Below are positions 12,041 through 43,695 of a stretch of DNA of 43,695 nucleotides, piece by piece; position 1 is the stretch's first letter; each line of letters starts with the position of its first letter. Source of the stretch: a virus; the IMG/VR virus record IMGVR_UViG_3300031825_000023, positions 1 through 43,695 of that record; one strand, given 5' to 3'. The notes beneath the pieces were generated by a model. That model worked only from the letters and a program-made list of their open reading frames with translations, did no database searches and was not told the origin of the DNA. The position numbers were made by a program, and so were the translations under genes.

Positions 12041-12117
12041 AGCGGTGTAGCGCAGCCCAGTAGCGCGCGGGGCTCATAACCCTGAGGGCATCGGAGCGAA
12101 GCCGGCCACCGCAACCA
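12041..12117 (+). tRNA. initiator-like tRNA-Met (CAU), divergent T-loop
   Basis: A 77-nt cloverleaf with encoded CCA. Acceptor AGCGGTG pairs with CACCGC, leaving an A1-A72 mismatch. The D-arm is GCGC/GCGC. The anticodon stem CGGGG/CCCTG with loop CTCATAA gives anticodon CAU and three consecutive G-C pairs. The 1:72 mismatch and the three G-C pairs are marks of initiator tRNA. The T-loop reads AGCGAAG instead of TTCRANY, and the stem has an A-C mismatch, so it may be a degraded or specialised copy. It is flanked by two terminators. Confidence 0.8.
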
Positions 12118-35560: not shown

Positions 35561-35590
35561 GCCCCCAGCTTCGGCCGGGGGGCTTTTTTC
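35561..35590 (+). terminator. late-operon terminator
   Basis: GCCCCC and GGGGGC form a stem with a GC-rich loop, followed by TTTTTTC. It closes the late operon just before the integration region. Confidence 0.85.
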
Positions 35591-35844: not shown

Positions 35845-36000
35845 TAGAGCGGGGCAGAATGCGCGCATGGACCACATCCGCCAGATCGTCTGGTTGCTCA
35901 TCGAAAGGCCGGCATGGGTATGTGGCGCACCCTGAATCTGTAGGTACATCCGTAGGCACAATTTGCAGGATGCCTCGCAAACCCGCATGAATGCTAGCTC

Positions 36001-36023
36001 TTCGACTGACTCCCTCTCCGCCA
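36001..36023 (+). other. attP core: 3' end of a tRNA-Ser gene
   Basis: The 23 bases split exactly into a T-loop TTCGACT, stem GACTC, acceptor CCTCTCC, discriminator G and CCA. CCTCTCC-G-CCA is the usual 3' end of bacterial tRNA-Ser (5' GGAGAGG). The rest of a tRNA is absent, so this is a tRNA 3' fragment carried by the phage, as in many integrase attachment sites. Recombination here would restore the host gene. Confidence 0.8.
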
Positions 36024-36025
36024 AG

Positions 36026-36052
36026 ATAGCCCCACCAAGGGGCTATTTTTTT
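36026..36052 (+). terminator. terminator downstream of the attP core
   Basis: ATAGCCCC-ACCAA-GGGGCTAT with seven T directly after the tRNA-like core. It would end transcription of a reconstituted host tRNA after integration and isolate the integrase. Confidence 0.85.
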
Positions 36053-36186
36053 GCTGATTCCCACGAGAACACAGCAAAATCAGGCACTTAGCAAGCGCGA
36101 GTGCCCACAAATCCCACGCCAACCCGCCCGAGTACACGGGCAGCGAGTAGGCATTTCTGTAGGCACCGCCGATCACCAGCGGAAAA

Positions 36187-37368
36187 ATGCCTACAGCGAA
36201 CACCCTGACAGACGCGATCTGCAAGCGCGCAGCGCCCTCCGACAAGCCGCAGAAGCTCTTCGACGGCCATGGCCTGCACCTCTTCATCACCCCGGCCGGC
36301 GGCAAGCGCTGGCGCATGTCCTACCGCTTCGGCGGAAAGCCGCAGACGGCCACCTTCGGGCCCTATCCACGGGTGAGCCTCGCCGATGCCAGGAAGCGCC
36401 GCGATGATCTGATGCAGGCGCTGGACCGCGGCGAGGACCCGAAGGCGAAGAAGGAGCCGAAGAAACCGGCGGACGTGCTCACCTTCCAGACGGCCTGCGA
36501 GAACTTCTGGAGAGGCCGCAAGGACATCACCTCGGGCTACCGGGACAACGCCCTGCGTGGGCTGGAGATGCACCTCTGGCCCACCCTGGGCGAGCTGCCC
36601 ATCACCGAGATCGACAAGCCAGCGCTGATGAAGGCGCTGCTGCGTATGGACGATGCCGGCAAACACGTCTACGTGCGACGCGTGCGTGTGTGGGCGGGCC
36701 AGGTGTTCGACTGGGCGGTCGAGCGCGGCGAGGCGAAGATGAACCCGGCGGCGCTCATCCGTCCGGACAAGGCGTTCGCCAAGCGCCCGGTCGAGAACTT
36801 CGCGGCGCTGGATATCACCGAGGTGCCGGCGTTCATGGAAAGGTTGTCGCTCGAGAAGGAGCTGCAGAGCGTGCTCGCCTGCAAGCTGCTCGCGCTCACC
36901 TGGGTGCGCACGAAGGAGCTGCGGGCCATGGAGTGGGACCAGGTCGACGGGGACATGTGGCGGGTGCCGGCGGGGAACATGAAGAAGCGCCGGGCGCACC
37001 TGGTGCCGCTATCCAGCCAGGCGCTCAAGCTGCTGGAGGTGCTGCGGGCCCGGCGCCGGCCGGCCAGTCCCTACGTGTTCCCGTCAGAGCATCGGGATGA
37101 CCGCCCCATGAGCGAGAACGCGGTGCTGTACCTGATCGCCCGCATGGGCTACCAGGGCCGCATGACGGGGCACGGCTGGCGCAGTGTCGGCAGCACCTGG
37201 GCCAACGAGAGAGAGATGAATCCGGACGCCATCGAGCGCCAGCTCTCGCATGCGCCGGATGACGAGGTGCGCGGCGTCTACAACCGCGCGGAGTATCTGG
37301 CGCAGCGTCGCGCCATTCTGCAAGGCTGGGCCGACTGGCTCATGCCGGATCCGGCAGCCGCAGCTTGA
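36187..37368 (+). CDS. int: tyrosine-recombinase integrase
   Basis: A 393-residue integrase. Residues 1 to about 90 form the DUF4102-type arm-binding domain (DAICKRAAPSDKPQKLFDGHGLHLFITPAGGKRWRMSYRFGGKPQTATFGPYPRVSLADARKRRDD). The catalytic part has Arg in LTWVRTKELRAMEWDQV, H-G-W-R in TGHGWRSVGSTWANE, H in QLSHAPDDEVRG and the nucleophile Tyr365 in GVYNRAEYL. It catalyses integration at tRNA-Ser. An arm-type repeat overlaps its first codons, so it may repress itself. Its 3' end overlaps the convergent Xis-like gene by 29 bp. Confidence 0.94.
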   Translation: MPTANTLTDAICKRAAPSDKPQKLFDGHGLHLFITPAGGKRWRMSYRFGGKPQTATFGPYPRVSLADARKRRDDLMQALDRGEDPKAKKEPKKPADVLTFQTACENFWRGRKDITSGYRDNALRGLEMHLWPTLGELPITEIDKPALMKALLRMDDAGKHVYVRRVRVWAGQVFDWAVERGEAKMNPAALIRPDKAFAKRPVENFAALDITEVPAFMERLSLEKELQSVLACKLLALTWVRTKELRAMEWDQVDGDMWRVPAGNMKKRRAHLVPLSSQALKLLEVLRARRRPASPYVFPSEHRDDRPMSENAVLYLIARMGYQGRMTGHGWRSVGSTWANEREMNPDAIERQLSHAPDDEVRGVYNRAEYLAQRRAILQGWADWLMPDPAAAA

Positions 37369-43446: not shown

Positions 43447-43695
43447 GACGGCTCCGCTTCGATGGGAATACCGTCTTCATTGAGCGAGTACCAGACATCG
43501 GGCTTGATGCCGTTCTCGCCCACCTTTGATGCGAAGACCTTGAAATCCTTGGACGGCCAAGGAGCGCGATAGACGAGGACGATCGCGCCGCCTGCGCTGG
43601 CCATCGCGCGAGAGTTGCCGCCAAACACCGCAGCAATGGCCCCTTCGCCCGTGGTGGCGGCGTTGGCCCAGTCGCCCGTGGTGGCGGCGTTGGCC
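43443..43695 (-). CDS. 9-residue-repeat protein, C-terminal part (runs off the right edge)
   Basis: Minus-strand reading enters at the right end as ANAATTGDW-ANAATTGEG, then leaves the repeat into a C-terminal domain, AIAAVFGGNSRAMASAGGAIVLVYRAPWPSKDFKVFASKVGENGIKPDVWYSLNEDGIPIEAEPS. The internal ATG at 43628 is not the real start: the frame continues in register into the gene at the left end. The GGN-SRA-A-GGAIVLVYR end resembles caps of other phage repeat proteins. The repeat part probably forms an elongated beta structure. Confidence 0.85.
   Translation of the reverse strand, partial: ANAATTGDWANAATTGEGAIAAVFGGNSRAMASAGGAIVLVYRAPWPSKDFKVFASKVGENGIKPDVWYSLNEDGIPIEAEPS
43648..43695. repeat. 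27-bp tandem repeat, right end
   Basis: Repeat cores start at 43648 and 43675, period 27. Overlapping the last four bases (GGCC) with the first four of the window keeps both the 27-bp period and the reading frame. Confidence 0.95.

Follow-up and report, generated by a model that had tools for sequence, protein, structure and literature searches.

An uncultured temperate phage with an attP that copies the 3′ end of tRNA-Ser and carries a predicted terminator

Introduction

Integration at the 3′ ends of tRNA genes with the gene left whole is standard, and a temperate-phage attP that copies a tRNA 3′ end is a well-known type of site; the one described here is unusually legible. By its integrase (57% amino acid identity) the nearest named phage is Variovorax phage VarioGold (OP296522.1).

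The 15-bp att sequence of VarioGold, CCTCCCTCTCCTCCA, occurs once in virion DNA and twice around the prophage, where one of the two copies, 176 nt upstream of int, serves as the 3′ end of tRNA-Ser(CGA) (PMC9658991). For KplE1, negative autoregulation has been described of integrases with a promoter overlapping attL (PMC2951348). In ICEKp1 the terminator of tRNA-Asn is displaced on integration and int comes under the tRNA promoter, with stem-loops in its leader acting as attenuators (PMC13023037).

The viral record and its attachment site

The window, by which we mean the whole 43.7-kb stretch of DNA analyzed, is the viral record IMGVR_UViG_3300031825_000023 with genes for terminase, portal, major capsid, tail and lysis. 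It contains the 23-mer TTCGACTGACTCCCTCTCCGCCA once, at positions 36001-36023 (+), next to the gene of a tyrosine-family integrase (Table 1). With one copy of the core in the window and phage arms flanking it on both sides, the window is a temperate-phage genome in the free, non-integrated state. That the site is attP and not attL is seen from the phage arm to the left of the core, where attL would have a tRNA body, and from ARAGORN, which called no tRNA at 36001-36023 when run on the window. We are highly confident that this attP is intact, that it spans approximately 260 bp and that 36001-36023 overlaps its crossover core.

Both ends of the record (1-132 and 43637-43695) consist of a 27-bp tandem repeat, GGCCCAGTGGCCCGTGGTGGCGGCGTT, a sign that the genome may be circularly permuted and that its assembly broke within the array. 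When the structural region was compared with phages by megablast, a short match to the portal gene of Burkholderia phage Magia was found and nothing else.

Table 1. Coordinates of attP, its neighbors and the phage-borne tRNA in the window
Feature	Position	Strand	Remarks
Phage-borne tRNA-Met (CAT)	12041-12117	+	Sole tRNA of the record
P-arm direct arm-type sites, GTAGGTA (35940-35946) and GTAGGCA (35952-35958)	35939-35959	+	Start-to-start 12 bp
Conserved box AACCCGCATGAATG	35979-35992	+	~30 bp left of the core
TTCGACTGA	36001-36009	+	Read earlier as T-loop/T-stem; most likely phage P-arm
attP core CTCCCTCTCCGCCA	36010-36023	+	Equals nt 63-76 of tRNA-Ser(CGA): T-stem end, acceptor, G73, CCA
Predicted intrinsic terminator	36025-36052	+	9-bp stem, 5-nt loop, 7 T; starts two bases past CCA
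IHF-like site AATCAGGCACTTA	36078-36090	+	1 mismatch to WATCAANNNNTTR; begins 54 nt past CCA
P′-arm, two direct arm-type sites	36147-36153, 36159-36165	+	Start-to-start 12 bp
Tyrosine recombinase/integrase, 393 aa	36187-37368	+	Arm-DNA-bind_3, Phage_int_M and Phage_integrase domains
Inverted arm-type site over the int start codon	36188-36194	-	Same position in many relatives
AlpA-like protein, 65 aa	37340-37537	-	Just past int, convergent; Pfam Phage_AlpA E 1.9e-4

The core and the extent of its identity with tRNA-Ser

The sequence-only reading had recognized the attP and named the 3′ end of a tRNA-Ser gene as its target, and this is borne out by the 14-nt identity of the core and by the location of related integrases at tRNA-Ser. 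It had also parsed all 23 bases perfectly into a tRNA end. Counting back from CCA (36021-36023), G73 falls on 36020 and the acceptor positions 66-72 are CCTCTCC; by the same count T-stem positions 61-65 would read GACTC, i.e. with a G at position 61, which in tRNAs is nearly invariantly C. Neither this G nor the ARAGORN result nor the genome search bears the parse out: of 399 genomes from the probable host order, Burkholderiales, to which Variovorax belongs, none contained the exact 23-mer. The 22-mer CTCCCTCTCCGCCAAGATAGCC had no match in a viral contig collection.

TTCRANNCNCTCCCTCTCCGCCA, on the other hand, is present in 78 of the 399 genomes, nearly always in the form TTCGAATCCCTCCCTCTCCGCCA. 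Twenty of these loci were checked and found to be tRNA-Ser(CGA) in 18 cases, tRNA-Ser(GGA) in one and a truncated tRNA-Ser end in another, 19 of the 20 being intact tRNA-Ser. From the absence of the 23-mer and the frequency of TTCRANNCNCTCCCTCTCCGCCA it follows that phage and tRNA are identical only in the last 14 bases; the block common to both is exactly 36010-36023.

The proposal that the entire 23-mer is nevertheless tRNA-derived, with a common core reaching from the T-loop through CCA, draws on the TTCGA that stands in register with the tRNA T-loop and on the 20 of 23 bases that equal tRNA-Ser(CGA). We consider it very improbable: position 61 is among the three mismatches, the 23-mer is missing from all 399 genomes, and GACTG, which abuts the core, is common to the P-arm of VarioGold's attP and not to tRNAs. 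In the three relatives of which both junctions are known (G002, G030 and G089), moreover, the core begins only at the 3′ T-stem/acceptor, and the left side of attR, where the T-loop part would lie, is not tRNA-like. Because of the shared GACTG and of where these three cores start, 36001-36009 is most likely phage P-arm, and the T-loop/T-stem interpretation of these nine bases is not supported.

Could the tRNA-like stretch be a chance resemblance or a decayed remnant, with integration occurring elsewhere? The collections searched held no integrated copy of this phage, as such an explanation would have it. Matches to the 14-mer with up to two mismatches are expected 0.61 times per shuffled window, which by arithmetic implies approximately 0.001 exact matches for the window as a whole, before the position beside the integrase is weighed. 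Since the exact 14-nt match lies between arm sites and is positioned as the att of VarioGold, and since the integrase family is almost always found at tRNA-Ser, we regard chance or decay as extremely unlikely.

The integrase, its arm sites and accessory sites

The int gene starts 163 bp downstream of the core end and runs in the same direction. The motif GTAGGYA occurs six times in the 43.7-kb window, and five of the six sites lie within the 255 bp that extend from the P-arm to the int start. The paired layout of the P-arm sites is also found left of the core in VarioGold and in the relatives L002 and L003, and in attR of G002 and G089. The inverted site at the int start is a candidate operator for autorepression by Int, by analogy with known systems. 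Upstream of int the relatives L005, L007 and L008 have the arm motif GGGTATC or GGGCATC in place of GTAGGYA, similarly arranged, which suggests a change of arm specificity inside the clade.

The box AACCCGCATGAATG is present, whole or in part, in L002, L005, L007, L008, L009 and attR of G002, the surroundings of which have diverged; perhaps it is a factor-binding site. Of 16 close relatives, the window being counted among them, 13 have an IHF-like match (≤1 mismatch) at 53-57 nt past CCA, and elsewhere in the P′ arms of these 16 there is just one such match. Mononucleotide shuffles gave a mean of 0.02 of 16 and a largest value of 1, a significance that is overstated since the relatives share ancestry, although the DNA around the site has diverged. 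The core identity, the arm-site repeats and this position-locked IHF-like site can be read from the DNA itself.

The AlpA-like protein encoded just past int is a candidate excisionase/recombination directionality factor, its match to Phage_AlpA (21.6 bits vs. a cut-off of 21) being barely above threshold. Judging from relatives and known systems, Int, IHF and the AlpA-like protein would bind at attP.

The predicted terminator

A terminator had been claimed to follow directly after the tRNA end, and a predicted hairpin with T-run is indeed found there. The stem arms (36025-36033/36039-36047) and the T-run (36046-36052) form GATAGCCCC-ACCAA-GGGGCTATT with seven T. The call is a structural one, made by folding and by a purpose-made detector. 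A simple consensus terminator scanner run on the window did not list the hairpin at 36025, probably because the stem runs into the T-run.

With stringent settings the detector found a hairpin ≤80 nt from CCA at 11 of the family's 34 att sites, where dinucleotide shuffles would give 0.28, and with relaxed settings at 16 of 34. Among 20 host tRNA-Ser loci the relaxed settings gave 13 with such a hairpin. By these predictions terminator replacement in the integrase family is common, not obligatory.

The hairpin might mainly shield int from transcription, in the prophage from the tRNA promoter and in the phage from the late operon, the ending of the tRNA transcript being a by-product. The codirectional int 163 bp downstream is in agreement with this, as is ICEKp1, which loses the tRNA-Asn terminator and has int driven by the tRNA promoter with attenuation by stem-loops in the 5′-UTR (PMC13023037). 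However, a terminator-like site (35567-35590, found by the consensus scanner) already follows the late genes, and several relatives sit at tRNA-Ser without a terminator. Shielding as the main role is possible, on balance doubtful; it is also compatible with replacement of the host terminator, since a single hairpin can serve both.

Related integrases and their tRNA-Ser targets

In nearly every case integrase relatives are encoded approximately 160-210 bp downstream of tRNA-Ser genes. From the best Burkholderiales relatives in the 399 genomes 25 loci were taken, and at 21 of them an intact tRNA-Ser lies directly upstream of int; the other four have a tRNA-Ser-like 3′ remnant (two loci, L035 and L049), a tRNA-Pro and a tRNA-Leu. 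In five GTDB relatives int is located approximately 163-178 bp downstream of tRNA-Ser with the anticodons CGA (L010), GCT (L011, which is the same place as L030), TGA (L012 and L013) and GGA (L014).

Both junctions were recovered for G002 (17-bp core repeat, 42.7 kb apart), G030 (24 bp, 39.8 kb) and G089 (18 bp, 37.7 kb). The far core copy in G002 and G089 is followed by a hairpin and T-run, which fits a displaced host terminator. No far-end core repeat was found within 60 kb in G142 and G352, and for G175 the only repeat found was one of 12 bp at a distance of 6.8 kb. In G520:C10, G751:C88, G786:C1 and G464:C110 two tRNA-Ser 3′ ends lie 1.8-7.7 kb from each other; perhaps small elements occupy this site or the tRNA gene has been duplicated there.

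The host search proposed by the sequence-only reading thus had a divided outcome. A tRNA-Ser ending in the 23-mer and a prophage of this phage or of a near-identical one were not found in the collections searched, in which the nearest integrase is approximately 74% identical, and the junctions are known from relatives alone; these relatives do reside at tRNA-Ser.

In the integrase tree the window clusters with L010 (tRNA-Ser(CGA)), L002 and L030 in well-supported sets, and CGA is most likely the isoacceptor targeted. Close integrases use differing tRNA-Ser isoacceptors, and the labels shift often, the supported branches forcing at least four changes each for CGA, GGA and GCT alone. As read from these loci, the clade holds to the tRNA-Ser family and the core tracks the isoacceptor. 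A wider proposal, for which we see nearly as much reason to believe as to doubt, is that the clade is bound to the tRNA-Ser family and swaps its core (12-24 bp) among CGA, GGA, GCT and TGA with arms and IHF spacing fixed, several members bringing a terminator of their own that would give the tRNA-Ser a new 3′ end and insulate int from the tRNA promoter.

Proposed integration

We propose that the integrase encoded at 36187 would recombine the 14-bp core CTCCCTCTCCGCCA with its exact counterpart at the 3′ end of a host tRNA-Ser, most likely CGA. At the int-proximal junction the phage terminator would then come directly after the whole host tRNA-Ser, the expected sequence being a complete tRNA-Ser(CGA) and then AGATAGCCCC. 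At the far junction a non-functional 3′ scrap of the tRNA and the displaced host terminator would remain, in the order TTCGACTGA, core, host terminator.

Integration in silico into the host locus L073 yielded an intact tRNA-Ser(CGA) at attL and no tRNA at attR, and the 3′ tail folded equally stably at attL (-23.7 kcal/mol) and in the host (-23.3 kcal/mol). In the simulation tRNA-Ser is kept and the phage terminator replaces that of the host, in line with the earlier expectation that insertion would rebuild both. A functional tRNA at attL is indicated by this simulation and by the intact tRNA-Ser beside int in relatives. That attP integrates at the 3′ end of tRNA-Ser via CTCCCTCTCCGCCA, with the tRNA kept and the phage terminator replacing the host's, appears to us very probable. 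From relatives and known systems we infer the recombination and the terminator activity; we also infer the host, the isoacceptor used and the exact crossover point.

For this phage tRNA-dependent lysogeny was considered and rejected: the host tRNA is kept, and the sole phage tRNA is tRNA-Met, with no tRNA-Ser.

The integration target of an uncultured phage is thus legible from its own DNA, and its host is narrowed to bacteria with a tRNA-Ser ending in CTCCCTCTCCGCCA. Core, arms, IHF-like site and terminator together form a comparative set for integrase switching among tRNA isoacceptors, which also bears on how elements replace the terminators they displace.

Comparison with known systems

With VarioGold the phage shares a homologous core (the annotated 15-bp attP), a similar hairpin and then int, all in the same order, as well as the arm-site sequence GTAGGCA and, most likely, the target tRNA-Ser(CGA). 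The two differ in the discriminator of the core (CTCCTCCA vs. CTCCGCCA), and VarioGold has a small MerR-type gene where this phage has the AlpA-like gene. VarioGold is described as a siphovirus, whereas by its capsid the present phage is related to, among others, Burkholderia phage Magia and Bordetella phage vB_BaM-IFTN9.

In its domain make-up and in the position of int, just past the tRNA and codirectional with it, the integrase resembles those of the P4/KplE1 type (Arm-DNA-bind_3). As in intS of KplE1, arm sites lie upstream of int (PMC2951348), and the autoregulation described there is in keeping with an inverted arm site at the start of int. The target of KplE1 is a tRNA-Arg gene, whereas that of the present clade is mainly tRNA-Ser.

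As in ICEKp1, the host tRNA terminator would be moved to the far end of the element, and stem-loops lie between tRNA and int. In ICEKp1, however, the tRNA promoter drives int subject to attenuation only, whereas here a predicted intrinsic terminator abuts CCA. Mycobacteriophages with tRNA-dependent lysogeny likewise have a short core at a host tRNA gene, approximately 10 bp as compared with 14 (PMC10865867); unlike theirs, the core of this phage reaches CCA, and the tRNA would be fully kept at attL.
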